A DNA stretch of 64,000 bases from Pseudomonadota bacterium. Lineage in GTDB: Bacteria; Pseudomonadota; Gammaproteobacteria; Burkholderiales; Rhodocyclaceae. Within the stretch, counting starts at the first letter, position 1; each line of letters opens with the position of its first letter. The notes beneath the pieces are model-generated. The model worked only from the letters and a program-made list of their open reading frames with translations, was not told where the DNA came from and did no database searches. The position numbers and the translations under genes are program-made. Location of the stretch: the NCBI GenBank assembly GCA_018261895.1, contig JAGTRT010000009.1:39509-103508 (forward strand), given 5' to 3'. Of this stretch, positions 21,535 to 61,612 are shown one piece after another.

Positions 21535-21570
21535 CACGGTCTACCGGAAAAAACGGCCAAAATCGAAATC
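21535..21570 (+). repeat. 36-nt dispersed element, copy 1
   Basis: cacggtctaccggaaaaaacggccaaaatcgaaatc; begins 4 nt after the MCP stop codon. Confidence 0.85.
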
Positions 21571-21685
21571 CGCCGTAGCCGGCGGGGCGGTACATGGGGT
21601 GTGACAATTTGTCGCACCCCATACTTTTGGCAGACTATGAAACAATGCGCTTCTGCCCATTCTCCATATCGCCCGACACCCACTT

Positions 21686-22156
21686 GTGAACAAGAAGATA
21701 CTGATCGACGTCATTGGTCTTGAATTGATCGCGCTGGTCGTGGTGGTGGGTTACAAGTTATCCCCGATGTTGTTGCCGAAGGCGGATGTGACGGTTCTGC
21801 CCGACCCCGTTTGCAACCTGCAGCGCGAGGCCTGCGGGGTGACCCTGCCGTCCGGCGGCAGCGTGCGCTTGTCGATGGGGACGCGGCCCATCCCGCTGGT
21901 CAAACCCTTCGAGGTCGAAGTCAGCACGGCGGGTTTTACGCCGACGCGCGTCGAGGTCGATTTTTCCGGCATCGACATGAACATGGGTTTCAATCGCAGC
22001 GAACTGGCGCCGGGCAAAGCCGGCAGCCATACGGCGCAGGTCACCCTGCCGGTCTGCGTGACAGGCCGCATGGACTGGCAGGCAACCGTGCTGGTTGAGA
22101 CCGGCAGCGAGCGCGTGGCCATTCCCTACCGCTTTACCTCCGGGGAGCCTCAGTAA
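21686..22156 (+). CDS. Hypothetical membrane-anchored protein in copper-assembly operon
   Basis: N-terminal TM; directly precedes SCO1. Confidence 0.65.
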   Translation: MNKKILIDVIGLELIALVVVVGYKLSPMLLPKADVTVLPDPVCNLQREACGVTLPSGGSVRLSMGTRPIPLVKPFEVEVSTAGFTPTRVEVDFSGIDMNMGFNRSELAPGKAGSHTAQVTLPVCVTGRMDWQATVLVETGSERVAIPYRFTSGEPQ

Positions 22157-22756
22157 ATGATCGAGCGCATCCTGATCCTGGTCGCCATCCTGCTGGCTGG
22201 CGTGATCGCCGGCGTCGGCCTGCTCTGGCATCCGGAGACGCCCGAGCGGCCGCTGCCCAAGGCGCAGGCGCCGGCCGGCGGTGATTTCACGCTGCAGTCG
22301 GCCAGGGGCGCGGTGTCGCTGAAGGATTTTCGCGGCAAGCTCGTGCTGCTCTATTTCGGCTACACCTATTGCCCCGATATCTGCCCGACCTCGCTGGCCG
22401 CAACGGTCACCGGCCTGAAGCAGCTGACACCGGAAGAGGCGGCCAAGGTCGCCATGATCTTCATCTCGGTCGATCCCCAGCGCGACACGCCGGCCCGTCT
22501 GGCCGAATATGTCGAATTCTTCGATCCATCCCTGGTCGGCGTCACGGGCGAGCCAGCCGTCATCGCCGACATCGCGCGCCGCTACGGCGTCTTCTATTCG
22601 GCGCAGAAGGTCGATTCGGCCGGCGGCTACGTGGTGGATCACTCGGCCGATACGTTGATCGTTGCCCCGGATGGCCGGCTGGTCGCCAGGATCGCCCATG
22701 CCACGCCGCCCGCCGAGGTCGCTGTCGCCATTCGCAAGCATTTGAACCTACCCTGA
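22157..22756 (+). CDS. SCO1/SenC copper-binding assembly protein
   Basis: GKLVLLYFGYTYCPDICPTSLA and later H-containing motif VVDHSADTLIVAPDGRL. Confidence 0.92.
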   Translation: MIERILILVAILLAGVIAGVGLLWHPETPERPLPKAQAPAGGDFTLQSARGAVSLKDFRGKLVLLYFGYTYCPDICPTSLAATVTGLKQLTPEEAAKVAMIFISVDPQRDTPARLAEYVEFFDPSLVGVTGEPAVIADIARRYGVFYSAQKVDSAGGYVVDHSADTLIVAPDGRLVARIAHATPPAEVAVAIRKHLNLP

Positions 22757-22768
22757 AGGAGTAAAAGC

Positions 22769-23242
22769 ATGAAGCAATTGTCCCTGCTCGCTGTTGGCCT
22801 GATGTTCTCGGCGGGCGTGCTGGCTGCCGCAGCCGATGCCGTGTCCGTGCAGGATCCCGTCGTGCGCCTGGCGCCCCCCAATGCGCCGGCGACGGCTGCC
22901 TTCATGGTCATCAAGAACGGCGGCGACAAGGATATCAAGGTCGTCAAGGCGGCCAACCCGGCCTCGCGCGTGACCGAACTGCACACCCATCTGAACGAGG
23001 GCGGCGTCATGAAAATGCGTCCGGTGCCAAGCATCGACATCAAGGCCAAGGGCGAGGCCGTGCTCAAGCCGGGCGGGCTGCATGTCATGATGATCGATCT
23101 CAAGGCGCCGATGAAGGAAGGCGATGTCGTGCCGATCACCCTGAGCTTCGACGACGGCAGCAGCAAGCAGGTCGATGCCAAGGTGGTTCGTCCGACCCCG
23201 GCGCCGATGCCGGCTGCCATGGAGCACCAGCACAAGCATTGA
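22769..23242 (+). CDS. PCuAC-type periplasmic copper chaperone
   Basis: Signal peptide; H(M)X10MX21HXM-like region TELHTHLNEGGVMKMRPVPSI...GGLHVMMIDLKAPMKEG. Confidence 0.9.
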   Translation: MKQLSLLAVGLMFSAGVLAAAADAVSVQDPVVRLAPPNAPATAAFMVIKNGGDKDIKVVKAANPASRVTELHTHLNEGGVMKMRPVPSIDIKAKGEAVLKPGGLHVMMIDLKAPMKEGDVVPITLSFDDGSSKQVDAKVVRPTPAPMPAAMEHQHKH

Positions 23243-23261
23243 GCTCCTCCGCAGCGCGAAA

Positions 23262-23301
23262 AAAAGCCCTGAATGACACGCTCGTTCAGGGCTTTTTGCT
23301 T
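23262..23301 (+). terminator. Rho-independent terminator
   Basis: aaaaAAGCCCTGAATGACACGCTCGTTCAGGGCTTtttgctttt. Confidence 0.85.
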
Positions 23302-23314
23302 TTGCGGGCCTTCT

Positions 23315-23350
23315 CACGGTCTACCGGAAAAAAGGCCCAAAATCGAAATC
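23315..23350 (+). repeat. 36-nt dispersed element, copy 2
   Basis: cacggtctaccggaaaaaaggcccaaaatcgaaatc; abuts/overlaps the stop codon of the regA-like gene. Confidence 0.88.
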
Positions 23351-23882
23351 AGGTTTTGACCGGCCGTTTCGACAGCTTGCGCTGCAAGGTGCGTCGGTGC
23401 ATCTTCAGGGCGCGGGCCGTGGCCGAGACGTTGCCGTCGTTTTCGTTGAGCACGCGCTGGATGTGCTCCCATTCCAGGCGGTCGACCGACAGGGGTTCGT
23501 CGGACGGCGGCAGGTCGACGTCCGGGCTGTCGTCATCGTCGAAGGCCGAGAGGATGGCTTCGATTTCGACGGGTTTGGCGAGGTACTGGATGGCGCCGAG
23601 CTTGACCGCATCGACAGCTGTCGCGATGCTGGCGTAGCCGGTCAGGACGACGATGCGGCAGGCCGGGTTGATCTCCAGCAGTTGCGGGATCAGGGCCAGG
23701 CCGGAGCTGCCATTCAGGTTGAGGTCGAGCACGACGCGGCCGAGCTTCCGATCGCGCGCCGCGGCCAGGGCCGACGGGACGTCGAGGGCGCCCAGCGCGG
23801 GGTGGCCGCGCCGTTCCAGCGTGCGAACGAGGATGGCATTGAAGCTGGGATCGTCGTCGATGACCAGGGTCGATTTACTCAT
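23349..23882 (-). CDS. RegA/PrrA/ActR-family response regulator
   Basis: MSKSTLVIDDDPSFNAILVRTLERRGH..., Fis-type HTH EHIQRVLNENDGNVSATARALKMHRRTLQRKLSKRPV. Confidence 0.88.
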   Translation of the reverse strand: MSKSTLVIDDDPSFNAILVRTLERRGHPALGALDVPSALAAARDRKLGRVVLDLNLNGSSGLALIPQLLEINPACRIVVLTGYASIATAVDAVKLGAIQYLAKPVEIEAILSAFDDDDSPDVDLPPSDEPLSVDRLEWEHIQRVLNENDGNVSATARALKMHRRTLQRKLSKRPVKT

Positions 23883-25138
23883 GGTTTTGTCCGTGGCAGT
23901 TCGATGCGGGCAAGGGCGCCCCCTTCTTCGGGATTGGCAAGCGTCAGGGTGCCGCCCAGTTGTTCGATGGCGGCGCGCGTCAACATCAGGCCGACACCGC
24001 TGCCCCGCTCGTGCGGCGGGAAGGCTTCCTGGCCGCCGAGTTCGAGGACGCGCTCGGGAAAGCCCGGGCCGTGGTCGCGAATGTCGATGCAGACCGTGTC
24101 GGTACACCAGCTCAGCCGAATCTCCAGCGGGAAGGCGGTGACGTTGGCCGCGTTGTTGAGCAGGTTGAGGACGGCCTGCTCCAGACGGGGATCGGCGACG
24201 ATGTCGGGGGCTGCCCCGTCGCTGGCGATGATCAGCCGGCTGCTGGCCTGCGGCCGGGCGGCGTGCCAATGCTGGCGCAGGTGGTCGAGCCAGCGGTTGG
24301 CCGGCTGCAGCGGTGCGCCTTCCAGGCGTTCGGCCCCGGCCCGGCGCGACAGGCCGGTGATGATCTCCTTGCACACGCCGATCTGCTGGAGCAGCAGGCG
24401 AACGTCGTCACGCGTCGTCTCGGCGAGCTTCGGGTCGTTGGCCAGCTCGCCGGCGAGCAGCGCCATGGTGCCGAGCGGTGTGCCCAGTTCGTGCGCGGCA
24501 CCGGCGGCCAGCGTCCCCATGGCCATGATGCGTTCGTCGCGCAGCGCCTGTTCGCGGGCAGTGGCCAGTTCGGCATCGCGCTGGCGGATGACGCGGGTGG
24601 TATGGACGATGATCCAGCCGATCATGATCACCGAGATGACGAAGATCAGCCACATGCCGCCCAGATGGAGCCGGGTGGCACGCGTTGCGTCGGGCATGGC
24701 GAGCGGCAGGTAATAGAGCATCAGCAGCGAATAGGCGGTGATGGCGACGGCCGTGACGATGGAGACGAAGCGCGCCGGCAGCGTCAGTGCGGCGACCGCG
24801 ACGGGCGGCAGGAGCAGGGAAACGAGCGGATTGGCTGCGCCGCCGCTGAGAAAGACCACGGCGCTGAGCATGCCGATGTCGAAAATCAGCTGGCTGAACA
24901 ACTCGGCGGCGCTGGCCATGTGCGAGCGGGCCAGGCGCCACTGGGCGAAGGCGTTGAAGACGATGCCGATGGCGACGATGCCGAGCAGCGGCACCTGCGG
25001 CACCGGAATGTCGAGCAGGCCCGGGGCGACCATGATGAGCTGGGCGAGCACGGCGAGCACCACCCAGCGACCCATGACCAGACGGCGCAGGTTGGCCAGG
25101 TAGTCGAAATTCGCAGTCGTTCGCGGGATGATCGCCAT
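23879..25138 (-). CDS. RegB/PrrB-family redox sensor histidine kinase
   Basis: Multiple TM helices, GAAHELGTPLGTMALL H-box, overlaps regA start. Confidence 0.88.
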   Translation of the reverse strand: MAIIPRTTANFDYLANLRRLVMGRWVVLAVLAQLIMVAPGLLDIPVPQVPLLGIVAIGIVFNAFAQWRLARSHMASAAELFSQLIFDIGMLSAVVFLSGGAANPLVSLLLPPVAVAALTLPARFVSIVTAVAITAYSLLMLYYLPLAMPDATRATRLHLGGMWLIFVISVIMIGWIIVHTTRVIRQRDAELATAREQALRDERIMAMGTLAAGAAHELGTPLGTMALLAGELANDPKLAETTRDDVRLLLQQIGVCKEIITGLSRRAGAERLEGAPLQPANRWLDHLRQHWHAARPQASSRLIIASDGAAPDIVADPRLEQAVLNLLNNAANVTAFPLEIRLSWCTDTVCIDIRDHGPGFPERVLELGGQEAFPPHERGSGVGLMLTRAAIEQLGGTLTLANPEEGGALARIELPRTKP

Positions 25139-25221
25139 GGGGCGAATTATGCGTTATTTGGCGAGGTTTTCCGTGGCCGGCGAGGTGCGACCATTTGCCG
25201 CACCCGTTGCCGGTTGCTTCT

Positions 25222-25257
25222 CACGGTCAACCGGAAAAAATGCCCAAAATCAGAATC
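25222..25257 (+). repeat. 36-nt dispersed element, copy 3
   Basis: cacggtcaaccggaaaaaatgcccaaaatcagaatc in intergenic space. Confidence 0.85.
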
Positions 25258-25283
25258 TTTCCGGCGGGCCGGGGCAAGCGGCA

Positions 25284-25844
25284 TCAGAGCAGGTAGGGGA
25301 CGAAACGCCGGGTGCGCTGCATGTATTCGGCGTATTGGGCACCGAAATAAGCCAGGCATTCGCGCTCGTCGGCATGCGCCGTCAGCCACAGCGAAAGCGT
25401 GGCAATCCCCCCCAGGGCCGCGCCCGCCAGGCTCGGGTCCTGGAAGAAGGCGCCCCAGGCCAGGGCCAGCAGCGATGAATACATTGGATGGCGGATGTAG
25501 GCGAAGATGCCATGCGTCACCAGTTGGGTGGTCTTCTCGAATTCGTAGAAGGAATCCTCGTTGCGTTGCGCATCCGGCGCGCCTTCCCGCTTGAGCGTGC
25601 GGGCGCCGGCGATGACGAGGGCGATGCTGAGCAGCATGAGCAGCCACGAGGTGAACTGGTGTGGCGAGTACGGATCGTCGCCCCAGACATGGTGGTTGAG
25701 GACGATCAGGCCGAGGATCGCTTCCCAGGCGAAGAAGCGCCAGAAACCGTGGCTGCCCGGCTGGCGCAGGGGCTTGCGCGACCACCAGACGACGATGGCG
25801 GAGCCGGCGAGAAAGAGGAGCAGGTCGTTCATGTCAGTGGGCAA
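25284..25844 (-). CDS. Isoprenylcysteine carboxyl methyltransferase-family membrane protein
   Basis: VTHGIFAYIRHPMYSSLLALAWGAFF...ADERECLAYFGAQYAEYMQRTRRFVPYL. Confidence 0.8.
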   Translation of the reverse strand: MPTDMNDLLLFLAGSAIVVWWSRKPLRQPGSHGFWRFFAWEAILGLIVLNHHVWGDDPYSPHQFTSWLLMLLSIALVIAGARTLKREGAPDAQRNEDSFYEFEKTTQLVTHGIFAYIRHPMYSSLLALAWGAFFQDPSLAGAALGGIATLSLWLTAHADERECLAYFGAQYAEYMQRTRRFVPYLL

Positions 25845-27138
25845 AGGCCGTGGTCATGGCGGCGATCATGTAGCCGTGGTCGAGCACACCGGCACTTTCG
25901 CGGATGCTGTGCATGGCCCACATCGGCGAACCGACATCGACGCTGGGAATGCCCAGGCGCGAGGCGACGATGGGGCCGATGGTGCTGCCGCAACCGAGGT
26001 CGGTGCGGTGCGCGTACTGCTGGCAGGGCACGCCGGCCTGCTCGCAGATGGCCATGAAGCGGGCGGCCGTCTCGGCACTCGTGCTGTAGCGCTGGTTGGC
26101 GTTGCTCTTGATGACCGGGCCGCCATTGACCAGCGCGCGGTGGCAGGGCTCGTAGGCGGCCGGAAAGTTCGGGTGCCAGCCGTGCGCCATGTCGGCGCTG
26201 ATGAAGAAACTGCGCGCCAGCATGCGCCGCTGGTCTTCGCCATCGAGGCCTGCACAGGCCGCCAGCCGGGTGACGACATCGGTCACGAAACTGCCGCCGG
26301 CGCCCGTGGCGCTCTCGCTGCCGACTTCCTCGTGATCGAAGAAGGCGCACAGGCAGGTGGCTGCGGGGGCTTGCGTGGCGAGCAGGGCGCTCAGCGCGGC
26401 GTGGCAGGAAGCGAGGTTGTCGAGCTGGCTGTTGGCGACGAACTCGCGGTCCACGCCCCAGAGGGCGCCTTTCTGCGTGTCGTAGGCGTTGAGTTCCCAG
26501 GTCAGCAGGTCGCCCGGTTCGACGCCGAGCTTGGCGGCGATGGGTTCGCGGAAGCGCGCTTCGGCTTTGACACCATCCTCGGAAACGCCGAGCAGCAGCG
26601 GCAGTTCGGTCTGCTTGTTGAATTTGAGACCGCTTTCATTGACCTCGCGGTTCATGTGGATGGCCAGGTTGGGCAGGCGCAGTAGCGGTTCGTCGAAGCG
26701 GATAAGGCGCGACTCGAAACCGCCCGGAACGCGCACATTGACGCGGCCGGCCAGCGACAGGTCGCGGTCGGCGAAGGTGGCGAGGATGGGGCCGCCATAA
26801 ACCTCGACGCCAAGGCGGACCATGCCGGCGTTGTCTTCGGCCGGTTTCGGCTTGAGGCGCAGCCCGGGCGAATCGGTGTGGGCGCCGATCAGCCGCAGGC
26901 CGGTCGTCGCGGCTGGCTGGCTGCCGACGATGAAGGCGATGATCGACGAGCCGCCGCGCACGACATAGCGCCGGTCGCCGGCCTTCAGTGACCAGCGCTC
27001 GGCTTCGTCGAGGCGGGTGTAGCCGGCCGCAGTCAGGCGGGCTTCGCAGGTATCGACGGCGTGCCAGGGACTCGGGCTGGCGTCGATGAAAGCGAGCAGG
27101 TCCTGCGCCTGGGCGCGGGTGGCGTCGGGAATGTTCAT
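25834..27138 (-). CDS. apeB: M18 family aminopeptidase
   Basis: HTDSPGLRLKPKP, CAFFDHEEVGSESATGAGGSF, AHRTDLGCGSTIGPI. Confidence 0.9.
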   Translation of the reverse strand: MNIPDATRAQAQDLLAFIDASPSPWHAVDTCEARLTAAGYTRLDEAERWSLKAGDRRYVVRGGSSIIAFIVGSQPAATTGLRLIGAHTDSPGLRLKPKPAEDNAGMVRLGVEVYGGPILATFADRDLSLAGRVNVRVPGGFESRLIRFDEPLLRLPNLAIHMNREVNESGLKFNKQTELPLLLGVSEDGVKAEARFREPIAAKLGVEPGDLLTWELNAYDTQKGALWGVDREFVANSQLDNLASCHAALSALLATQAPAATCLCAFFDHEEVGSESATGAGGSFVTDVVTRLAACAGLDGEDQRRMLARSFFISADMAHGWHPNFPAAYEPCHRALVNGGPVIKSNANQRYSTSAETAARFMAICEQAGVPCQQYAHRTDLGCGSTIGPIVASRLGIPSVDVGSPMWAMHSIRESAGVLDHGYMIAAMTTAFAH

Positions 27139-28019: not shown

Positions 28020-28024
28020 GCCGG

Positions 28025-28741: not shown

Positions 28742-28802
28742 TTTTTAGTCGCTAGTTGTTAGCAGGGGAGTTGTTAGCTGATTTTGCGCTGGAAACCAAT
28801 GG

Positions 28803-29255
28803 CTAGCGACCAGCAACCAGCTCATCAATGCCGCGGTTGGCCAGGGCGTCGGCGCGTTCGTTTTCCGGGTGGCCGGCGTGGCCCTTGACCCACACCCATT
28901 CCAGCTTGTGCTGCTTGACCTGGGCGTCGAGCAGTTGCCAGAGGTCGGCGTTCTTCACTGGCTTCTTGTCGGATGTTTTCCAGCCGTTGCGTTTCCAGCC
29001 GTGTATCCACTCGTTGATGCCCTTCAGGACGTACTGCGAATCGGTGTAGATCTTGCCGCCGACCGGGCGCTTGAGGGCCTCGATGGCGCGGATCGCGGCG
29101 GTCAGCTCCATGCGGTTGTTGGTCGTTTCCTTCTCGCCGCCCCACAGTTCCTTTTCGTGCGGGCCGACGCGCAGGATCGCACCCCAGCCGCCGGGGCCGG
29201 GATTGCCCTTGCAGGCGCCATCGGTAAATATTTCTACGAGTTCTTCAGCGGCCAT
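28803..29255 (-). CDS. rnhA: Ribonuclease HI
   Basis: [22 protein letters not shown]...[16 protein letters not shown]...[10 protein letters not shown]...[17 protein letters not shown]. Confidence 0.96.
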
Positions 29256-29961: not shown

Positions 29962-29989
29962 CCGGGGCGCTGCGCTCGATAGTTCCGGT

Positions 29990-30772
29990 ATGTTTGAAGT
30001 CTCGTTCATTCCCGCGTTCAAGGACAATTACATCTGGTTGCTGACCCGTGGCAAGCGCGCCGTCGTGGTCGATCCTGGTGACGCCGCGCCGGTCATCGCC
30101 CGTCTGGAAGCCGACGGGCTGACGCTCGAAGGCATCCTGATCACGCACCACCACGCCGATCATCAGGGCGGCATCGCCGAACTGACAGCGCGTTGGCAAG
30201 CCGAGATCTATGCACCGGTCGTCGAGTCTATCACAGGCTGCACCCGTCCTCTTTCCGGTGGCGAACTGATCGAGGTGCTGGGTGAAACGGTCGCTGTCCT
30301 GGCCGTTCCCGGCCATACGCGGGGCCATCTCGCCTACTCGGTGCCGGGGGCGCTTTTCTGCGGCGATACGCTGTTCGGCGCGGGTTGTGGTCGCCTGTTC
30401 GAGGGGACGCCGGAGCAGATGTCGGCCTCGCTCGACCAGATCGCCGCCTTGCCGGACGACACGCTGATCTATTGCGCCCACGAATACACTGGGATGAATT
30501 TGCGCTTCGCGCTGGCCATCGAGCCGGACAACGCCGCCCTGCAGGCGCGGGTGGCGAAGGTCGCAGCGCTGCGGGCAGCGGGTCGGCCGAGCGTGCCCCT
30601 GACGCTGGCCGAGGAGAAGGCGACCAACCCCTTCCTGCGTTGCGAGGTGCCGGCCGTGGTCGATGCGGGACTGCGACATGCCGCCCAGACCGGTGAAGAC
30701 CCCGATTTGACGGTCAACCGGAAAAAAGCCTCAATTTTCAAATTTATCCGCAGCTGGCGGAATACGTTCTAA
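29990..30772 (+). CDS. gloB: Hydroxyacylglutathione hydrolase (glyoxalase II) with in-frame repeat near the C-terminus
   Basis: ILITHHHADHQGGIAEL, VPGHTRGHLAYSVPGALFCGDTLFGAGCGRLFEGT; C-terminus ...DLTVNRKKASIFKFIRSWRNTF. Confidence 0.93.
   Translation: MFEVSFIPAFKDNYIWLLTRGKRAVVVDPGDAAPVIARLEADGLTLEGILITHHHADHQGGIAELTARWQAEIYAPVVESITGCTRPLSGGELIEVLGETVAVLAVPGHTRGHLAYSVPGALFCGDTLFGAGCGRLFEGTPEQMSASLDQIAALPDDTLIYCAHEYTGMNLRFALAIEPDNAALQARVAKVAALRAAGRPSVPLTLAEEKATNPFLRCEVPAVVDAGLRHAAQTGEDPDLTVNRKKASIFKFIRSWRNTF
30709..30745 (+). repeat. 36-nt dispersed element, copy 4, in frame inside gloB
   Basis: gacggtcaaccggaaaaaagcctcaattttcaaattt read as (L)TVNRKKASIFKF. Confidence 0.8.
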
Positions 30773-31181: not shown

Positions 31182-31184
31182 GTA

Positions 31185-40987: not shown

Positions 40988-41945
40988 GAATGATGATCCT
41001 GTTGAAGACTCCGGCGATTATAGCCGAACTGAACCGCTCCGCCTGACCGTTCCTGACGCCTCCTGCGGTCGCCGCCTCGATCAGGTGCTGGCTGAACTGC
41101 TGCCGCAACATTCCCGCAACCGTTTGCAGGGATGGGTGCGGGATGCCTGCGTACTGGTCGATGGCAAGCCCGAGACCGAACCCAAGCGCAAGGTGATGGG
41201 CGGCGAGACGCTGCTTGTCAGCGAACCCGACGATATCCGCAACCAGCCCGAGCTGCCGGAAGACATACCGCTCGACGTGGTTTTCGAGGACGAGACGCTG
41301 CTCGTCATCAACAAGCCGGCCGGGCTGGTCGTACATCCGGGCAGCGGCAACTGGAGCGGCACGCTGATGAATGCGCTGCTCCACCACGTGCCGGGTATCG
41401 AGGCGGTGCCACGTGCCGGCATCGTGCATCGGCTGGACAAGGACACCAGCGGCCTGCTGGTCGTGGCCAAGACGCTCGAAGCGCAGACGGATCTGGTCCG
41501 CCAGCTGCAGGCGCGCACCGTGCGGCGCATTTACCTGGCGCTCGCGGCGGGGGCGATGAAGCACGAGGGGACGGTCAATGAGCCCATCGGCCGTCATCCA
41601 TCGCAGCGCATCAAGATGGCCATCGTGCCGGAAAACCGGGGCGGCAAGCCGGCCATCACCAATATCCGCATTCTTGAACTTTTCCCCTACACGACCTTCG
41701 TCGAGTGTTCGCTCGAAACCGGCAGGACGCACCAGATTCGCGTGCACATGGCGGCTATCCATCATCCGCTCGTCGGCGACCAGGTTTATGGCAAACACAA
41801 CCCGAAGCTGCCGGTGTTCCATCGCCAGGCGCTGCATGCGACGCGCCTCGGCCTCGTCCATCCGTTGACCGGCCTCAAGATGCAATGGGAAGTACCGATG
41901 CCGGAGGATATGCGTGAGCTTCTCGATACCCTGCGCTATGGCTAA
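40986..41945 (+). CDS. rluD: 23S rRNA pseudouridine synthase RluD
   Basis: S4-like N-terminus; GIVHRLDKDTSGLLVVAKT; GRTHQIRVHMAAIHHPLVGDQVYG. Confidence 0.95.
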   Translation: MNDDPVEDSGDYSRTEPLRLTVPDASCGRRLDQVLAELLPQHSRNRLQGWVRDACVLVDGKPETEPKRKVMGGETLLVSEPDDIRNQPELPEDIPLDVVFEDETLLVINKPAGLVVHPGSGNWSGTLMNALLHHVPGIEAVPRAGIVHRLDKDTSGLLVVAKTLEAQTDLVRQLQARTVRRIYLALAAGAMKHEGTVNEPIGRHPSQRIKMAIVPENRGGKPAITNIRILELFPYTTFVECSLETGRTHQIRVHMAAIHHPLVGDQVYGKHNPKLPVFHRQALHATRLGLVHPLTGLKMQWEVPMPEDMRELLDTLRYG

Positions 41946-42672
41946 TCTGCTGGTGCCGGACTGGCCGGCGCCAGCTCGGGTGCGCAGCCTGCAGACGCTG
42001 CGTGGTGGCGGTTGCAGTCTGGCGCCATGGGGCAGTTTCAACCTGGGGGACCACGTCGGGGACGATCCGGCCCATGTCGCGGCCAATCGGGCAGCCCTGC
42101 GCGAGCATTTGCCGGGCGAACCGGCCTGGCTGACGCAGGTGCACGGCATTTTGACGGTCAACCCGAAAAAAAGCCCAAATTTGAAATCCGCCGACGCCGC
42201 TTACACCGATGAAGCCGGCGTCGTTTGCGTGGTCATGACGGCCGATTGCCTGCCGGTGCTGTTCTGCGAGCGTGCCGGTACGGTCGTGGCGGCGGCGCAC
42301 GCTGGCTGGCGCGGCCTGGCTGCCGGTGTGCTTGAGGAAACGATGGCTGGGATGGCGGTGCCGGCCAGCGAGTTGCTGGTTTGGCTGGGGCCGGCCATTG
42401 GCCCGACGGCCTTCGAGGTGGGCGACGAGGTCCGTGCCGCCTTTGTCGCGCACGATGCGCAGGCAGCAAGTGCGTTCGCCCCGAAATCGCCAGGCAAGTG
42501 GCTGGCCGATATCTACGCCCTGGCGCGCCAACGCCTGCTGGCGGCAGGAGTCCGGTCGATCAGCGGTGGTGACCGATGCACGTACAGCGAATCAGCCGAC
42601 TTCTTTTCCTATCGCCGCGATGGTGTGACGGGTCGCATGGCGACGCTGATCTGGCTGGCCGAAGCAGATTAG
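41938..42672 (+). CDS. pgeF: Peptidoglycan editing factor / YfiH laccase-domain protein with in-frame repeat
   Basis: WLTQVHGI[LTVNPKKSPNLK]SADAAYTDEAGVVCVVMTADCLPVLFCE, AAAHAGWRGLAAGV, WLGPAIGPTAFEVGDEV. Confidence 0.93.
   Translation: MANLLVPDWPAPARVRSLQTLRGGGCSLAPWGSFNLGDHVGDDPAHVAANRAALREHLPGEPAWLTQVHGILTVNPKKSPNLKSADAAYTDEAGVVCVVMTADCLPVLFCERAGTVVAAAHAGWRGLAAGVLEETMAGMAVPASELLVWLGPAIGPTAFEVGDEVRAAFVAHDAQAASAFAPKSPGKWLADIYALARQRLLAAGVRSISGGDRCTYSESADFFSYRRDGVTGRMATLIWLAEAD
42153..42188 (+). repeat. 36-nt dispersed element, copy 5, in frame inside pgeF
   Basis: gacggtcaacccgaaaaaaagcccaaatttgaaatc read as LTVNPKKSPNLKS. Confidence 0.88.
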
Positions 42673-50826: not shown

Positions 50827-51384
50827 ATGTCGGAACCGGTACGCCTGATCAAGAAATACCCCAATCGTCGTCTTTACGATACCAAGACGAGTGCGTACAT
50901 CACGCTGGGCGATGTGAAGGAACTGGTTCTCAAGTTCGAGGCCTTCAAGGTCGTCGACGCCAAGACCAATGAGGATCTGACGCGCAGCATCCTGCTTCAG
51001 ATCATTCTCGAGGAAGAATCCGGCGGCATGCCGATGTTCTCGAGCGAACTGCTCTCCGGGTTCATTCGCTTCTACGGCAGCACGATGCAGGGCATGCTCG
51101 GCAAGTACCTCGAGAACAACATGCGGACCTTCGTCGATTTCCAGGGCAAGCTGCAGGAGCAGTCGCGTACCCTGTACGGTCCGAACGGTGGCGACACCAC
51201 GCACATGCAGACGGATTTCTGGAACCAGTTCCTGAATTTCCAGCAGCCGGCCATGCAGAACATGATGACGGCCTACATGGACCAGTCGAAGAAAATGTTC
51301 CAGTCGATGCAGGACCAGATGAAGAACCAGACGCGGACGATGTTCACCGGCTTCCAGTACAACCCGGGCGACAAGACCGAGTAG
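50827..51384 (+). CDS. phaR: PHA synthesis repressor
   Basis: RLIKKYPNRRLYDTKTSAYITLGDVKELVLKFEAFKVVDAKTNEDLTRSILLQIILEEE. Confidence 0.95.
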   Translation: MSEPVRLIKKYPNRRLYDTKTSAYITLGDVKELVLKFEAFKVVDAKTNEDLTRSILLQIILEEESGGMPMFSSELLSGFIRFYGSTMQGMLGKYLENNMRTFVDFQGKLQEQSRTLYGPNGGDTTHMQTDFWNQFLNFQQPAMQNMMTAYMDQSKKMFQSMQDQMKNQTRTMFTGFQYNPGDKTE

Positions 51385-51413: not shown

Positions 51414-51449
51414 AATTTCAATTTTGGCTGTTTTTTCCGGTTGACCGTC
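51414..51449 (-). repeat. 36-nt dispersed element, copy 6
   Basis: Minus strand gacggtcaaccggaaaaaacagccaaaattgaaatt, in the convergent phaR/kup gap. Confidence 0.9.
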
Positions 51450-51459: not shown

Positions 51460-53337
51460 TTACAGCACGATCTGCGCCCCCAACTCGACCACGCGATTCG
51501 ACGGAATCCGGAAGTAGGCTGTCGCGCTGCCGGCGTTGCGGAACAGGGCGACGAAGAGCAGTTCGCGCCAGTAGGCCATGTCCGATTTGAGTTTCGGAAT
51601 CAGCGTTTCGCGTCCGAGGAAAAACGAGGCGTCCATCATGTCGATGTGCAGCCCCGCGTCGGCGCAGAGCGCAAGGGCGGCCGGGATGTCCGGTTCATCC
51701 TTGTAGCCGTATTGCACGACGACTTGCGCGAAGTTGCCGTCCAGCTTGCTGACTTCGATGCGGTCGATATCCGGCACGTAGGGCACGTCGAAGACCGACA
51801 CGCTGAGAACGACCACCTGCTCGTGCAGTGTCTTGAAATGCTTGAGGCTGTGCAGCAGCGCATGCGGCACGGCTTCCGGATTGGGCGTCATGAAGATCGC
51901 CGTGCCGGGTACCCGCTCGATGCCGCTGCCGGCGATGTCCTGGATGAAGGGCTTGAGTTCCAGGGCTTCGGCCGCCATGCGTTCGTGCAGCAACTCGCGG
52001 CCCCGTTTCCAGGTGGTCAGCAGGATGAAGACGCCCAAGCCGAAGACGAGCGGGAACCAGCCGCCATCGGGAATCTTGACCGAATTGGCGAGGAAGAATC
52101 CAAGGTCGATGATGATGAAAGGCAGGGCGCCGAGCACGGCGCGCACGGGGCTCCATTGCCACAGGCGGATGGCGACGGCGATGGCCAGCAGGTTGGTGAT
52201 CAGCATCGTGCCGGTCACCGCGATGCCATAGGCCGCCGCCAGATTGGACGAGGTCTGGAAGCCGATGACCAGGCCAATGATGGCGACCAGCAACAGCCAG
52301 TTGATCGCTGGCAGGTAGATCTGGCCGATCTCGCGGTCTGACGTATGCTGGATTTCCAGACGCGGCGTGTAGCCGAGCTGGATGGCCTGCTGGGTGATAG
52401 AGAAGGCGCCGGAAATCACCGCCTGCGAGGCGATGATGGTTGCCACCGTAGACAGGATGACGAGCGGCGACAGCGCCCATTCCGGAGCGAGCCGGTAGAA
52501 CGGATTCTCGACGGCGCCGGGATTGTCGAGCAGCAAGGCTCCCTGGCCGAAGTAGTTGATGATCAGTGCCGGCAGCACGTAGCCCAGCCAGGCGTACTGG
52601 ATCGGCTTGGCGCCAAAGTGCCCCATGTCGGCATACAGCGCCTCGGCGCCGGTGATGCAGAGGACGACGGCGCCCAGCGCGAAGAAGCCGAGCACCGAAT
52701 TGCCGAACAGGAAATTGATGCCATAAACCGGGTTGACCGCAGCCAGGACCGCCGGGTGCTCAATGATCGCGACGCCGCCGAGCAGGGCCAGCACGGCGAA
52801 CCAGATCAGCATGATGGGCCCGAACAGCGCGCCGACGCTGGCCGTACCCCGGCGCTGGATAAAAAAGAGCCCGACCAGAATGACCAGCGTGATCGGCTGG
52901 ATGTACGGTTTGAAAGCGGGCGTGATCAGTTCCAGACCTTCGACCGCCGAGAGCACCGAAATGGCCGGCGTGATGACGCCGTCGCCGTAGAACAGCGCAG
53001 CCCCGAACAGCCCGAGCGCGATGAGCAGCTTGTGCCGGCGCGAGGCCGGGTCGCCGTTGTGCAGGGCCAGCGTCATCAGCGCAATGATGCCGCCTTCACC
53101 CTTGTTGTTGGCGCGCATGATGAAAGACACGTACTTGAGCGTGACGACGATGATCAGCGACCAGAGGAACAGCGACAGGATGCCGAGCACGTTCTCTGGC
53201 GTGATCGGCACCGGATGGTGGGCGCCGCCGAAGACTTCCTTGATCGAATAGAGCGGGCTGGTGCCGATGTCGCCATAAACAATGCCGAGCGCGGCCAGGG
53301 TCAGCGTCGCCAGACGCTTGTTGTCAGAGGTTTGCAT
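51460..53337 (-). CDS. kup: Low-affinity potassium transporter Kup
   Basis: LTLAALGIVYGDIGTSPLYSIKEVFGG; GGIIALMTLAL; FGAALFYGDGVITPAISVLSAVEGL. Confidence 0.96.
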   Translation of the reverse strand: MQTSDNKRLATLTLAALGIVYGDIGTSPLYSIKEVFGGAHHPVPITPENVLGILSLFLWSLIIVVTLKYVSFIMRANNKGEGGIIALMTLALHNGDPASRRHKLLIALGLFGAALFYGDGVITPAISVLSAVEGLELITPAFKPYIQPITLVILVGLFFIQRRGTASVGALFGPIMLIWFAVLALLGGVAIIEHPAVLAAVNPVYGINFLFGNSVLGFFALGAVVLCITGAEALYADMGHFGAKPIQYAWLGYVLPALIINYFGQGALLLDNPGAVENPFYRLAPEWALSPLVILSTVATIIASQAVISGAFSITQQAIQLGYTPRLEIQHTSDREIGQIYLPAINWLLLVAIIGLVIGFQTSSNLAAAYGIAVTGTMLITNLLAIAVAIRLWQWSPVRAVLGALPFIIIDLGFFLANSVKIPDGGWFPLVFGLGVFILLTTWKRGRELLHERMAAEALELKPFIQDIAGSGIERVPGTAIFMTPNPEAVPHALLHSLKHFKTLHEQVVVLSVSVFDVPYVPDIDRIEVSKLDGNFAQVVVQYGYKDEPDIPAALALCADAGLHIDMMDASFFLGRETLIPKLKSDMAYWRELLFVALFRNAGSATAYFRIPSNRVVELGAQIVL

Positions 53338-53346
53338 GGAGATTCC

Positions 53347-55595: not shown

Positions 55596-55821
55596 TGCCA
55601 GCGTACGTCGACTGGTCTAAAAACGATGCATATTCTCACCATCCCGGCGTAAAAATGTCGTAAAGATTGGGCGCGGAAAGTCGGGGTTGTATCGGCCGCG
55701 ACGTTGTCGCCGGGGCTGGATTTTGTCGGCGCCCGGAGCTATGGTGAATTCATATGCTGCTCGTGCGTTTGAACCTTCCGCGTGTCAGAATGTCTGTCTA
55801 GCTTCACCTCGGATTCGAAAA

Positions 55822-56169
55822 GTGAAAGAACGTCGCCGCTCCCCTCGTGTGTATCTCAAAGGCCATGTCCAGCTCAGCCTCGGTGGAAATCATCTGGATT
55901 TGCCGGCGGCCGACATTTCGGTGTCGGGTATCGGCGTCCTGGTGGATGCCAGCGTGCTGGGCGCCAAGCCGAGTGGTGAAGTGGGCGTCTGCCGGATCGA
56001 GTCGCCCGATCTGGGCGGACGCGTCGAAGCCTACGTCAGCATCATGCGCATTCGTCGCGTCGGCGAGCGCCGGCTGGTCGGCCTGCGCTTCGAATCGATC
56101 AGCGATGACGAGCTCGAACTGATCCGCGAATACAAACGGAAGTGCCGGGAAACCCCGGCAGTTTCGTGA
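55822..56169 (+). CDS. PilZ-domain c-di-GMP effector (GTG start proposed)
   Basis: KERRRSPRVYLKGHVQLSL...ADISVSGIGVLVDA (RxxxR ... [D/N]xSxxG). Confidence 0.8.
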   Translation: MKERRRSPRVYLKGHVQLSLGGNHLDLPAADISVSGIGVLVDASVLGAKPSGEVGVCRIESPDLGGRVEAYVSIMRIRRVGERRLVGLRFESISDDELELIREYKRKCRETPAVS

Positions 56170-56179
56170 TCGCTTTCGG

Positions 56180-56503
56180 TTACGGCCGGAAAAAGCTTTC
56201 CAGATCCTGGAAAACCGCATGGTCGGCGTTGTGCCGGCGGATCGCGATGACATCCTCCAGCTTTTCGACCTGCTTCATCATCTGCGCCAGCCGCTGGTCT
56301 TCGTTGACCAAGAGCCAGATGCGGCTCTGTCGTCCGTCGCCAACCGGCAGGCAGAGGATGCCTTCGACGTTGTAGGCGCGGCGCGAAAACAGGCCGACGA
56401 CGTGCGACATGACGCCGGCGTGATTATTGACGTCGATTTCCAGCACGGCGCGGGCCAGGGCGTTTTGTTCGTTACGGTTGATGGCGTTCATCTCAGGCTC
56501 CAA
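56180..56503 (-). CDS. ilvN: Acetolactate synthase small subunit (IlvN type)
   Basis: ALARAVLEIDVNNHAGVMSHVVGLFSRRAYNVEGILCLPVGDGRQSRIWLLV. Confidence 0.9.
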   Translation of the reverse strand: MEPEMNAINRNEQNALARAVLEIDVNNHAGVMSHVVGLFSRRAYNVEGILCLPVGDGRQSRIWLLVNEDQRLAQMMKQVEKLEDVIAIRRHNADHAVFQDLESFFRP

Positions 56504-58163
56504 TCATGTCGCGGTTGGCGGCGCCCGGCGGCACCATGGGATAGACCTTCTGTTCGGCGTCGATGCTGGCGTGGATCAGGCAGGGGCCGGGGCGGGAAAT
56601 CGCCTCCATGAGCGTCGCACAGGGATTGGCCGAGGCGTCGAGGTCGACGGCGGCAATGCCGAAACCCTGGGCGATCTTGACGAAATCCGGCGACGAGCGG
56701 AATTGCGAGGCGAACAGGCGCTCGCCGTAGAACAGCGTCTGCTGCTGATGGACGAGGCCGAGTGTGGCGTTGTCCATGAGCACGATCTTGATGTTCACGT
56801 TTTCCTCGGCGGCGGTGACCAGTTCCTGAATGTTCATCATGATCGAGCCGTCACCGGTAAAGCAGACCACGGTGCGCTCACGTTCGGCCAGCGCCGCGCC
56901 GATGGCGGCCGGCACACCGAAGCCCATGGTGCCCAGCCCGCCCGAGGTTAGCCACTGGCGCGGGCGGCGCAGCGGGTAGGCCTGGGCGACCCACATCTGG
57001 TGCTGGCCGACGTCGGTGGCGATGATGGCATCGTCGTCGAGGCAGGCGGCGACGCTCTGGATCAGCCCGAAATGCGAGCGCGGGTTGTCGAGATCGCTCA
57101 TGGCCAGCGGAAATTCGGCTTTCAGGGCGTTTACACGGTCAACCCATTTTTTTCGCGAATTTTGAAATGTCGCCGGCAGCAACTGGCCGAGCGCTTCGCC
57201 GATATCGGCCGTGATACCGATGTGCGCAGTCTTGATCTTGTCGAGTTCGGCCGGGTCGATGTCGATGTGAATGATCTTGGCCTGCGGACAGAAGGCCGCC
57301 ACCTTGCCCGTGGCGCGGTCGTCGAAGCGGGCGCCGACGGCGATGAGCAGGTCGCATTCGTCGAGTGCCAGATTGGTGTAGCGGGCGGCGTGCATGCCGA
57401 GCATGCCCAGTGCCAGCGGATGATCGACCGGCATGGCGCCGAGCGCCATGAGCGTCATCACGGTTGGCAGGCCAGCTTTTTCGGCGAGTTCGATGGCAGC
57501 AGCCGAGGCACCGGAATGGATGACGCCGCCACCGAGGTAAAGAATGGGCCTTTCGGCCGCGTTGATCATGGCAGCGGCCTGTTCGATCAATGCCGCATCG
57601 GCGGCGGGAGCGTGCTCAGCACGAGCGGGTTCCGGCCAGGCGCTGATTTCGATGGCCTGGGTCTGCACATCCTTCGGGATATCGACGAGCACCGGGCCGG
57701 GGCGGCCGGAGGCGGCGATCCGGAAGGCGCGCGGGATGACCTCGAGCAGTTCCTCGGCCGACGAGACGAGGAAGTTGTGCTTGGTGATCGGGATGCCCAG
57801 GCCGTAGGTGTCGACTTCCTGGAAGGCGTCGGTGCCGATCATCGCCTTCGGCACCTGACCGGTGATGGCGACGAGCGGAATCGAATCGAGCTTGGCGTCG
57901 GCGATGGCGGTCAGCAGATTGGTCGCGCCGGGGCCGGAGGAGGCGAGGCAGACGGCCGGCTGGCCGGTGGCGCGGGCCATGCCCTGGGCCATGAAGCCGG
58001 CGCCCTGTTCGTGGCGGGCGAGGACGTGGTGGATGGCGGTCGACTGGCCGAGCGCGTCGTAGATCGGCAGGATGGCGCCGCCCGGTATGCCGGCGACGGT
58101 GCGGATGCCCTGGCGTTCGAGCAGGCGCACGGTGATCTGGGCGCCGGTGAGAGTTTCTGTCAT
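56493..58163 (-). CDS. ilvB: Acetolactate synthase large subunit (IlvB type)
   Basis: VAGIPGGAILPIYDAL, ARHEQGAGFMAQGMARATGQPAVCLASSGPGATNLLTAIADAKLDSIPLVAITGQV; TPP motif FTGDGSIMMNIQELVTAAE. Confidence 0.94.
   Translation of the reverse strand: MTETLTGAQITVRLLERQGIRTVAGIPGGAILPIYDALGQSTAIHHVLARHEQGAGFMAQGMARATGQPAVCLASSGPGATNLLTAIADAKLDSIPLVAITGQVPKAMIGTDAFQEVDTYGLGIPITKHNFLVSSAEELLEVIPRAFRIAASGRPGPVLVDIPKDVQTQAIEISAWPEPARAEHAPAADAALIEQAAAMINAAERPILYLGGGVIHSGASAAAIELAEKAGLPTVMTLMALGAMPVDHPLALGMLGMHAARYTNLALDECDLLIAVGARFDDRATGKVAAFCPQAKIIHIDIDPAELDKIKTAHIGITADIGEALGQLLPATFQNSRKKWVDRVNALKAEFPLAMSDLDNPRSHFGLIQSVAACLDDDAIIATDVGQHQMWVAQAYPLRRPRQWLTSGGLGTMGFGVPAAIGAALAERERTVVCFTGDGSIMMNIQELVTAAEENVNIKIVLMDNATLGLVHQQQTLFYGERLFASQFRSSPDFVKIAQGFGIAAVDLDASANPCATLMEAISRPGPCLIHASIDAEQKVYPMVPPGAANRDMIGA
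57134..57169 (+). repeat. Divergent copy 7 of the 36-nt element with T-tract in place of A-tract, inside ilvB
   Basis: cacggtcaacccatttttttcgcgaattttgaaatg: outer parts match, centre is A/T-inverted. Confidence 0.45.
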
Positions 58164-58202
58164 GGAGGTTTCCTTTCTGTTGTTGGCACAACCGCCGGGC
58201 TC

Positions 58203-58240
58203 CAAAAACAAAACCCCGCCGGTTTGCGCCGGCGGGGTTT
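58203..58240 (-). terminator. Attenuator terminator upstream of ilvB
   Basis: Minus strand AAACCCCGCCGG-cgcaaa-CCGGCGGGGTTTtgtttttgg, perfect 12-bp stem and U-tract. Confidence 0.88.
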
Positions 58241-58261
58241 GGGGTTCTGTGCTGCTTCTGC

Positions 58262-58372
58262 TTACCCGATCCGCGACGGCGCGTGCATAACGACGCCTAC
58301 TACGACCACGCGTACGACGACCGGTTCCACTGCAAAGGCAGCGGCAGAGCGGAAGGTCGGGCGAGTGTTCAT
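58262..58372 (-). CDS. ivbL: ilvBN operon leader peptide (IvbL-like)
   Basis: MNTRPTFRSAAAFAVEPVVVRVVVVGVVMHAPSRIG: Val run just upstream of the attenuator. Confidence 0.88.
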   Translation of the reverse strand: MNTRPTFRSAAAFAVEPVVVRVVVVGVVMHAPSRIG

Positions 58373-58582
58373 GCGGATTTCGGGAGGGTTGGCTAAATTC
58401 AGTCTGCGAACTATGAAGGAGCCAGCAAACAAAATCAAGTCTCTCGGGTCGTTCTCCGCCGGCACCGGCAACATTTTTTTACACGCGTCGATATTGACTG
58501 GTAGGGTGCTGGGTCGATTACACTCCGCAAGCAGAGCTTGAAAATACAAGCTTCTGAAATTATTGGTGAATTTGGAGAGTTG

Positions 58583-59836
58583 ATGACGAGTAAGCGCAAG
58601 GTTCTGGTTGTCGATGCATCGAAAGTCGTCAGGGCATCGCTGGCCAAGCTGCTGTCGGGTCGATTCGACGTGCGTGACGAGGCAACCGATGACTCTGCCT
58701 GGCAGACGATGGTCCTCGACAGCGCCATTGTGGCCGTCGTGTCCGGATTGCGCCTGCCCGGACCGGATAGTGTCGGCTTGCTCGAACACCTTCGTGCGAG
58801 CAAATTGTCGCGGCTGAACGGCGTCCCGTTTTTCCTGATCGTGTCGAGCGCCTTTTCCGAGAGCGAGCGTGAGGAAGCACTCCGCAGCGGCGTCACGGGA
58901 TTTATCGAGAAGGATGCGATCGATTCGGTCGAAAGTATCGTTTCCGCCCATATGCAGTGGCGGGAAGATTCGGCGGAAGGCCGTGCCCCGGCACCACCGC
59001 CGGCCTTGCCCGACGAACCGTTCGAGCAGTTTGGCGCGGAGTCGGATATCGGCATCAGCAACATCATGGGGCATATCGCCGGGCTTGAACGGACAGACCG
59101 CGAGCCGCCGTCCGAGGACGCCTTCAGCAACACGGATACCGTGCTCGCCGAGGAAATGCTTGAGGAGTATCTGGCGAATAACATGCCGGGCCCGCTTGAC
59201 GGCATGGGGGTTGGTGTCCTGGCTTTCGGCCTGGATGGCTACGACCAGCTCGTGGCCCGTTACGGGTCCGAACTGCCTTTCCTTGCTGCGCAGAAATTCT
59301 GTTTCCTCTTGTCCCGGAAGGTCCGTCCGGAGGACTACATCGGACAACTCGCCAACGGGCGGGTGGTGATCGTGACGCCATCCTCGTCGGCGCAGATCTG
59401 CGCCGGCTTTGCCAATCGGATCTGCAAGGCGATGGCCAGTTCGCAGGTATCGGTCAATGGCCAGCGAATTCATCTGACGGTCAGCGTCGGTGTTGCGGTC
59501 ATGCCTGACGACGGGGCCACCCTGACGGAAACGGGGCTGTTGCAACTGGCCTATGAGCGCCTCGATACGGCCATGCGCGCCGGGGGCAACCGCGTGGTAT
59601 CCAGTTCGAACGTGCAGGGAACGGGTTGCGTCAGTTGCGAGGCTTTCCTGCCGCAATTGAAGGAACTGATGGCATCGACCGATCCGGCCGTGCTGAACCA
59701 TTGCATGGGTTCGATCGGGATGCAGTTGATGCCGCTGCTCAGGGAGCTCGACAAGCATTTCCGCCTGGGTTTGCCGATCGAGGAAATGAACAAGCGTTTC
59801 TGGGATCGGGAGCGGGCTGAACGGCTGGTGTCGTAG
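58583..59836 (+). CDS. Pseudo-receiver plus degenerate GGDEF protein, paralogue A
   Basis: MTSKRKVLVVDASKVVRASLAKLLSGRF...; degenerate cyclase domain LANGRVVIVTPSSS...VSVGVAVMPDDGATLTETGLLQLAYERLDTAMRAGGNRVV. Confidence 0.75.
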   Translation: MTSKRKVLVVDASKVVRASLAKLLSGRFDVRDEATDDSAWQTMVLDSAIVAVVSGLRLPGPDSVGLLEHLRASKLSRLNGVPFFLIVSSAFSESEREEALRSGVTGFIEKDAIDSVESIVSAHMQWREDSAEGRAPAPPPALPDEPFEQFGAESDIGISNIMGHIAGLERTDREPPSEDAFSNTDTVLAEEMLEEYLANNMPGPLDGMGVGVLAFGLDGYDQLVARYGSELPFLAAQKFCFLLSRKVRPEDYIGQLANGRVVIVTPSSSAQICAGFANRICKAMASSQVSVNGQRIHLTVSVGVAVMPDDGATLTETGLLQLAYERLDTAMRAGGNRVVSSSNVQGTGCVSCEAFLPQLKELMASTDPAVLNHCMGSIGMQLMPLLRELDKHFRLGLPIEEMNKRFWDRERAERLVS

Positions 59837-59901
59837 GCCCCGGGTCGATACCTGGTAGCCTGGCAGAAAAATGGAATGATTCATCCAGCGGGGAAATTCG
59901 C

Positions 59902-61560
59902 ATGACCGAAGTGCCTGTCGATCCGGAGAACGGTCGCGTTCGGCTGTTTCACGCCAGCCTGGTCTGGCCTCTGCAGCTCGAGCCGCTGGCAACGTCCGGA
60001 AGCGACGGTCGCCACTGGGAGGTATTCGAGGCGCTCCGCGAGGGCAATCCGTGGCGCCGGATCGACGACGAGTTCATGGAGGATGCCGCCCAGTTCAAGG
60101 AACGTCATTACCGCGAATTCGTGTCCTTTTTGCCGTATGTCCAACGCTTCCTCTATGGCGAGGGACGCTCGCGCCATTCGTCGCCTGACGACCCGCCCGG
60201 CGGTTCGCCGCTGCATGTGTTTCGGCGCAAGGATATTGCCAGTCTGCGCCTGACCTTGCGCAAGGGCGAGCAACCGGTCGAACTGGAGGTCGTACATCTC
60301 GACCTGTATTTTTTTCATGATCTCGATGTCGTGCTGCTCAATCCAGAGGTGCGCGCCCGGGACCTGTCGCTCGATGTGGTGCGCGACATCCTGTTCCGTT
60401 TCGGGCGGGCCTATCCGTCGGGGTGGGAGGAGGGTGGCGAAGGCCTGCACAACGTTTACCTGGCCGAGTGGATTGGTGTCGACGGCCAGGTGGTCGCCCG
60501 TTCGGATGCGGAAAAGCGCGAAAAATACCTGAGTTACGTCTGCCAGCATCGCAGCCCCTGCGTCTCGGAACATTGGGCCAGCCTGTTGCGACCCATCGTC
60601 CTCTCGCATTCGGATGAAACGGGCGATTTGCGTTACCGCTTGATCGAATATCAGCGCATGCCCGTCATGGCCTTCCTCGCGGTAGACCAGCCACGGACCC
60701 TGAGTCGCGAGGATTGGGTGCGCATCGGCTTCGCCAGCACGCTGCATCCGGGCGAGACCCTGCCGATCAACGAGCCGGGCGTCATCGAATTCGAAAGCCG
60801 TTTCTGTCAGGACCGCTTCTGGACGAACAGCGAAGCCGGGCCGAACACGCGTTTCATCTGTACCGGGAATACGTTCACCGTGGTCGGCGATGCGGCCTCT
60901 TCGTTCTTCGTCGATGGCGAGCGCGGCGTGCTGGCGCAAGTTCGCCACCAGTATTTCCTGGTTTTCCTGATTGCCCACCTGCATCGCGCTTCCTTGCTGG
61001 CATTTTCGGAAGTGCTGGTCGATGCGGTCAACGATCTCGACATTCGCGACGACGTTTCGGTGCGACGCTTCAAGCGGCGGATCCGGGCCAATTTCGAGAC
61101 CTTCCTGCGCTTCACGCATCGCTACTGGTTCCACGAACTCTCCGAGCGGCCGCATATCCAGACCATTTACCGGCTGTGTTCGAACCATCTGCACAATGAC
61201 GCGATGTACGACGACGTGCGCGACGAAATCCGCGAGATGAGCCACTACCTGGACAGCGACTCTCAGCGCCGGCAATCGAATACCGTCGTCCGCCTGACCG
61301 TGATCACCATCCTCGGCCTCATCGCTACCGTGACCACCGGCTACTTCGGCATGAACATCATTTCCTTCGGCGAGGGCAGCGTCCTCGAACGCAGCCTGCA
61401 CGGCCTGCTGGCGACATCCGTGTTCATTTCGCTGGTGCTCTTTGCCGTGGCCAAGTCGAAACGGCTATCCGACTTCCTTGAAGCCCTGTCCGACGAAAAA
61501 CTCACCCTGGCCGGCAAATTCCGGGCGCTGTGGGGGGTTGTCAGGAAGACCGAACGCTAG
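59902..61560 (+). CDS. CorA-like divalent-cation transporter
   Basis: C-terminal two TM helices with GMN motif: LGLIATVTTGYFGMNIISFGEGSVLERSLHGLLATSVFISLVLFAVAKSKRL. Confidence 0.8.
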   Translation: MTEVPVDPENGRVRLFHASLVWPLQLEPLATSGSDGRHWEVFEALREGNPWRRIDDEFMEDAAQFKERHYREFVSFLPYVQRFLYGEGRSRHSSPDDPPGGSPLHVFRRKDIASLRLTLRKGEQPVELEVVHLDLYFFHDLDVVLLNPEVRARDLSLDVVRDILFRFGRAYPSGWEEGGEGLHNVYLAEWIGVDGQVVARSDAEKREKYLSYVCQHRSPCVSEHWASLLRPIVLSHSDETGDLRYRLIEYQRMPVMAFLAVDQPRTLSREDWVRIGFASTLHPGETLPINEPGVIEFESRFCQDRFWTNSEAGPNTRFICTGNTFTVVGDAASSFFVDGERGVLAQVRHQYFLVFLIAHLHRASLLAFSEVLVDAVNDLDIRDDVSVRRFKRRIRANFETFLRFTHRYWFHELSERPHIQTIYRLCSNHLHNDAMYDDVRDEIREMSHYLDSDSQRRQSNTVVRLTVITILGLIATVTTGYFGMNIISFGEGSVLERSLHGLLATSVFISLVLFAVAKSKRLSDFLEALSDEKLTLAGKFRALWGVVRKTER

Positions 61561-61576
61561 CGCATCGCCGGAAACG

Positions 61577-61612
61577 GATTTCAATTTTGGCCTTTTTTTC
61601 CGGTTGACCGTC
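61577..61612 (-). repeat. 36-nt dispersed element, copy 8
   Basis: Minus strand gacggtcaaccggaaaaaaaggccaaaattgaaatc; supplies the C-terminus and stop of the adjacent metallopeptidase ORF. Confidence 0.9.

Follow-up and report, generated by a model that had tools for sequence, protein, structure and literature searches.

Copies of a 36-nt element are dispersed over both strands of the window analysed here, a 64-kb stretch of a betaproteobacterial genome of the Azonexus/Dechloromonas genus. This raises the question of what the element is, how its copies come into being and what reads it.

Copies of the element in the window and the genome

Consensus matching combined with a genome-trained profile identified ten copies in the window, seven of them strong. 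All seven copies listed in an earlier note on this DNA are real. Six lie at the coordinates and on the strands given there, with at most three mismatches to the 36-mer consensus proposed at that time (0 expected from shuffled sequence), and the seventh, at 30709, is intact in its 5' half but has diverged in its 3' half, its score for the genome-trained profile being 54 bits. The three weaker copies, at 15273-15308 (+), 17250-17285 (-) and 57134-57169 (+), had not been listed.

Gene boundaries are approximate, as they come from a simple codon model made for this analysis. Strong copies are located 3 nt past the stop codon of a chemotaxis-receptor gene (copy 21535-21570, +; gene 19825-21531, +), between the convergent genes 22769-23242 (+) and 23349-23882 (-) (copy 23315-23350, +), between the co-directional genes 23879-25138 (-) and 25284-25832 (-), where the orientation of the element opposes transcription (copy 25222-25257, +), and between the convergent genes 50827-51384 (+) and 51460-53337 (-), the latter encoding a K+ transporter (copy 51414-51449, -). 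The strong copy at 61577-61612 (-) overlaps gene 61581-62372 (-) at its 3' end, with the stop codon of the gene inside the element. Other copies are found within genes. The strong copy at 42153-42188 (+) lies in frame in a Cu-oxidase_4 (PgeF/YfiH-like) gene (41938-42672, +), and the 3'-diverged copy at 30709-30744 (+; profile score 54.2) in frame towards the 3' end of a hydroxyacylglutathione hydrolase-like gene (29990-30772, +; Pfam). The copy at 17250-17285 (-; score 51.1), which carries G at core position 6 (CGGTCGACCGG), is in frame in a dihaem cytochrome c gene (17024-17485, -; Pfam DHC). The weak copy at 15273-15308 (+; score 35.5) lies in a sensor histidine kinase gene (14247-15587, -; by Pfam), and the weakest, at 57134-57169 (+; score 25.4), inside gene 56493-58163 (-). 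The first 15 kb of the window are free of the element and contain, at 2646-9500, a 2,284-aa open frame that received no call from the genome-trained codon model; this region is possibly acquired DNA.

The element is far more abundant than the window suggests. The genome holding the window (G000, a 3.3-Mb assembly in 93 contigs) contains 350 matches to the 18-nt core ACGGTCWACCGGAAAAAA at one mismatch or fewer, while the reversed pattern yields none. Sites were called with a 42-column profile, using reversed sequence at the same threshold as the control. This gave 147 sites in 837 kb sampled from G000 (0 in reversed sequence), or one per 5.7 kb and about 580 per genome by extrapolation, 97 sites in 400 kb of the sister species G002 (again 0 in reversed sequence) and 143 sites in 500 kb sampled from the complete genome G067, corresponding to about 990 for the whole genome. 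Some Azonexus/Dechloromonas genomes carry about 600 to 1,000 copies, at a density of one per 3.5-5.7 kb. The earlier description of a dispersed element of constant architecture that is not a CRISPR array is therefore upheld, and the observation is larger than first stated, extending well beyond chance matches and beyond the seven loci to the rest of the genome and to congeners.

Alignment of 139 G000 copies on their core resulted in the consensus T-(C/T)-(T/C)-(C/G)-A-CGGTCAACCGG-AAA(A/T)(A/T)(A/T)-N-G-(C/G)-C-C-AAA(A/T)T(T/C)GAAAT. The core is CGGTCRAC(CGG), with A or G at core position 6, and is followed by a first A/T tract at positions 11-16 (AAAWWW; A at the first three positions, A or T at the last three) and by a second one starting at position 22, about one helical turn beyond the first. 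Information content is at background outside positions -8 to +33, resulting in a conserved motif of about 38 nt with sharp ends, and the 139 aligned copies showed neither terminal repeats nor target duplications. Exact 12-nt cores outnumber singly mismatched ones in both G000 (106 versus 41; reversed controls 0 and 13) and G002 (54 versus 28). G000 and G002 each contain one head-to-head pair of elements with starts 36 nt apart. A typical copy does not form a stable fold on either strand, and no Rfam match was found in the window.

Origin and distribution of the copies

G000 and G002 are syntenic, with roughly 80-89% identity in long alignments, and each of the 23 G000 sites that fall in aligned blocks is matched by a site in G002, in one case by a weak one. 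Five further weak in-gene sites are present in G002 only, having arisen through substitutions. Core identity between orthologous copies is 96-98%, compared with 73-88% for the flanks. Conservation at positions -8 to -1 falls below that of the flanks, as the two species favour different letters there. The PgeF-like gene at 41938-42672 illustrates how an in-gene copy is built. In an alignment of its protein across 29 species, element-rich species read T-V-N-P-K-K-S-P-N and element-poor species V-V-D-A and variants thereof, with graded intermediates, and the 29 orthologues show no length difference corresponding to the element. Further, none of 27 homologues lacking the element at in-gene sites shows the deletion of at least 6 residues expected of an uninserted site. 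The same gap test was used to show that Haemophilus uptake signal sequences (USS) are not insertions (PMC1626085). Copies of the element arise in place by point substitution and not by mobile insertion.

Relative to genes, copies in G000 are enriched 11.5-fold in convergent, 4.2-fold in co-directional and 2.3-fold in divergent intergenic DNA, and 61 of 147 (about 41%) are located within genes; this proportion ranges from 41 to 56% across the genomes counted. In co-directional intergenic DNA, 20 copies have the same orientation as transcription and 28 the opposite one. In-gene orientation is 34 same to 27 opposite in G000, and in G002 there is a mild same-strand excess (35 versus 19). In both species in-gene copies favour certain reading frames, encoding for example xTVNRKKxPKxK and HGQPEKxxKxE. 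For established uptake sequences, too, a bias of orientation within genes has been described (PMC2346458). The strand of the copies does not correlate with GC skew in G067 (p=0.87) or G000 (p=0.61) and is borderline in G002 (p=0.05). The copies thus have no clear polarity with respect to replication or transcription, the in-gene excess and the skew of G002 being the sole departures. Spacing is more regular than random in G000 (coefficient of variation, CV, 0.77 versus 0.97±0.07) and G002 (CV 0.69 versus 0.98±0.10), with a single gap below 500 nt in G000 where 11.9 would be expected. The number of sites per 8-kb bin in G000 rises with GC content, from 0.40 below 54% GC to 1.86 above 63%, the element itself being A/T-rich.

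Foreign DNA was considered separately. The comEC gene of G002 is broken up by a low-GC stretch of about 34 kb, with a large serine recombinase at its start and a phage-type integrase among its other genes. This island contains no sites, compared with 7 in the preceding 19 kb and about 8 expected at genome density (a hand-calculated Poisson probability of about 3e-4). The comEC gene is split at the same place in G002 (C33:109609-143310; L148-L150) and in G068 (C1:2218694-2251156), at about profile positions 28 and 26, respectively, by an insert of about 33 kb, which in G002 is the recombinase-bearing island. The locus may be a recurrent integration site whose occupation switches off transformation. 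Among 2.9 million viral contigs, the 18-mer was found in one, 10.8 kb of which carries two sites. This contig, IMGVR_UViG_3300033565_000011 (L248), has elements at 2752-2793 and 9689-9730, one of them in frame in a small protein (SHGQPEKKPET), and possibly represents a phage of an element-bearing host. A plasmid collection gave chance-level matches only.

Taxonomic range, dialects and competence genes

The element is limited to one genus (Azonexus/Dechloromonas) and is patchy inside it. The full motif was found in close relatives recorded as Azonexus sp., Azonexaceae, Rhodocyclaceae and Dechloromonas sp. Outside the genus, a scan of 287 genomes from the family's other genera with a long form of the motif gave a single match in each of 5 genomes and none in the rest, and 40 genomes of other families in the order are at background level, as judged with patterns that would miss a strongly divergent dialect. 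Within the genus, 215 to 723 pattern matches were counted in eleven species, and many others among those searched are near background.

Species differ consistently at positions -5 to -1 and in the choice of A or G at core position 6 (chi-square at -4 to -2, p 2e-8 to 9e-13). At positions -5 to -1, G000 has T-Y-Y-C/G-A, G002 T-K-C-C-A, G076 and G077 TGCTA and G067 either TGCTA or TGCTG. Dialects with CGGTCGAC are found in G034, G063, G031 and G011. A perfectly palindromic core (e.g. TTTTCACGGTCGACCGTGAAAA) followed by GGCAAAAA was observed in G011 (L243-L244), G031 (L237-L239) and G063 (L160-L163), and the palindrome of the best G011 copies folds at -16.3 kcal/mol. This hairpin-forming dialect could also serve as a terminator.

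The G000 genome encodes ComEC in an open frame of 802 aa, together with DprA and 14 prepilin-like proteins, including those of a fimT-pilV-pilW-pilX-pilY1-pilE operon, with names assigned from gene order and sequence. Nearly all congeners possess ComEC and DprA, and since these congeners include element-poor species, competence genes do not discriminate between the two groups. Copy number does not correlate with the integrity of ComEC (p=0.34), broken ComEC not being tied to low copy number. The PilE/ComP-like protein and FimT of the operon, two of the 14 prepilins, were examined as candidate receptors and show no co-variation with the element, leaving them unsupported in this role; neither has a close counterpart in G002, although G002 shares the element. 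The minor pilin operon itself, located beside ispH (G000:C35:18630-25267; L109, L110), is strongly different in G002, the sister species, and element-poor species have proteins closely related to its PilE. It looks as if this operon has been exchanged between lineages.

A candidate DNA uptake sequence and its rivals

Taken together, these features point to a trans-acting factor that reads double-stranded DNA with little regard to the direction of transcription or replication, whose specificity drifts between species, and whose sites change amino acids in genes and are missing from recently acquired DNA. Based on sequence patterns, we propose that the element is probably an independently evolved DNA uptake sequence, a candidate for the third family with such a system, and we strongly infer its membership of this class, short of a demonstration. 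The published hallmarks of USS and of DNA uptake sequences (DUS) served as criteria (PMC1626085). The element shows a matching copy number, no clear orientation bias, regular spacing, preference for non-coding DNA with many genic copies in favoured frames, origin by substitution, excess of exact cores, species dialects and absence from a recombinase-bearing island, and the competence machinery (ComEC, DprA, type IV pili) is present.

Its layout resembles that of the Pasteurellaceae USS. In the Haemophilus USS, the core is followed directly on its 3' side by an A-then-T tract, and another tract has its centre 12 positions further (PMC1626085); here, too, a core precedes an A-then-T tract and, roughly one helical turn beyond, a second A/T tract. 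Both are genome-wide, unbiased in orientation, regularly spaced, born by substitution, strong in consensus and divided into dialects within a family (PMC1626085). The cores are unrelated, however: neither the AAGTGCGGT type of Haemophilus influenzae nor the ACAAGCGGT type of Actinobacillus pleuropneumoniae is present, the core here being CGGTCRAC(CGG). The putative uptake element also differs in its longer conserved core, a density 3 to 6 times lower and its betaproteobacterial host. With the Neisseriaceae DUS, read by the minor pilin ComP, it shares the betaproteobacterial host, genome-wide occurrence, dialects around a fixed inner core and inverted pairs. In contrast, the DUS are 10-13 nt long, unrelated in sequence and built on a core with inner CTG (GCCGTCTGAA type) without flanking tracts, a plan that the element does not follow, and no ComP-type co-varying receptor was found here among the PilE/ComP-like protein and FimT. 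We consider it rather likely that Azonexus possesses a third uptake system of independent origin, which by convergence came to resemble that of Haemophilus in having a core and two phased A/T tracts, and which has split within the genus into several dialects, one of them now palindromic.

Mechanistically, a surface receptor, probably a minor pilin of the type IV pilus, would bind the tag in natural transformation, leading to preferential uptake of DNA of the bacterium's own kind. Contact with the receptor may be made by the inner core (A)CGGTC(A/G)AC(CGG), while the AAAWWW tract and the second A/T tract would aid bending or melting of the DNA at entry, as proposed for the Haemophilus USS. Chance near-matches would be taken up and recombined more often, so that copies accumulate by molecular drive, and drift of receptor specificity between species would give rise to dialects. 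The abundance, architecture, substitution origin, distribution and dialects of the element, like the presence of ComEC, DprA and prepilins, are established; receptor binding, biased uptake and drive are what we infer. Several observations count against an uptake function, namely the low density, the long motif, a copy number independent of ComEC integrity, the occurrence of ComEC and DprA in element-poor congeners, the lack of co-variation of two minor pilins with the element and the two sites on a viral contig. Classic uptake sequences occur at roughly one per kb, a density higher than that of the element, and to our knowledge no uptake sequence described so far is as long as its conserved motif of about 38 nt.

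The main alternative, a nucleoid-protein or chromosome-organisation site, was put forward in the earlier note. As a binding site for a chromosome-organising or nucleoid-associated protein that selection maintains at hundreds of places, it seems unlikely and has weaker support than an uptake sequence, an option missing from that note. Such a site would fit an element of double-stranded DNA without transcription polarity, its regular spacing and intergenic preference, and the combination of positions conserved between species with species-specific drift of the motif; resident DNA would also carry more copies than recent islands. On the other hand, a strong 38-nt consensus with more exact than near-miss copies is atypical of intracellular regulatory sites (an argument made in PMC1626085), the patchiness within one genus would require close relatives to have lost a structural system or never acquired it, in-gene copies cost amino-acid changes, and the direction of replication is uncorrelated. 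A nucleoid protein accounts for most of the pattern, the patchiness and unusually strong consensus less easily, while an uptake receptor together with recombination (molecular drive) accounts for all of it by one known mechanism.

The remaining explanations are less probable still. A role in transcription termination, in RNA processing or as a regulator operator is very improbable despite the strong enrichment between convergent genes and the stable fold of the G011 dialect. The mixed orientation in co-directional intergenic DNA, the large share of genic copies and the lack of a stable hairpin in the typical copy led us to reject an RNA 3'-end or termination signal, another earlier suggestion, as the general role, and enrichment is weakest in divergent promoter regions. 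Similarly, while the earlier note was right about a real dispersed element, its reading as a non-autonomous mobile repeat of the REP/MITE type is rejected as highly improbable because copies originate by substitution without gaps. REP/BIME-type repeats are short, present in hundreds of copies and mostly intergenic. The element resembles them in its shortness, copy number, intergenic preference and strong consensus but differs in that it is not inserted, lacks a stable hairpin in its common dialect, is regularly spaced and lies in frame in conserved proteins; it shows neither insertion polymorphism at orthologous loci nor terminal repeats or target duplications, its information ends sharply at -8 and +33, and its positions are common to species about 85% identical. 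Finally, a polar replication or repair motif like Chi or KOPS, also short and present in hundreds of copies genome-wide, is extremely improbable. It is contradicted by the missing strand skew, only G002 being borderline, and the element is far longer than such sites.

As of October 2025, uptake sequences were stated for Neisseriaceae and Pasteurellaceae only (PMC12616744), and the literature searched, with subscription journals largely outside its scope, held no report of this sequence or of uptake sequences in these bacteria. If the element is indeed an uptake sequence, it would establish a third family with such a system beside these two, in a genus whose dozens of sequenced species span several dialects and copy numbers from near background to about 1,000. 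This would make it possible to study directly how uptake specificity begins, drifts and is lost, and would provide a test of phased A/T tracts as a general design for the passage of DNA through the outer membrane. Azonexus and Dechloromonas are environmental bacteria common in wastewater, and an uptake system in this genus would therefore bear on gene exchange there.
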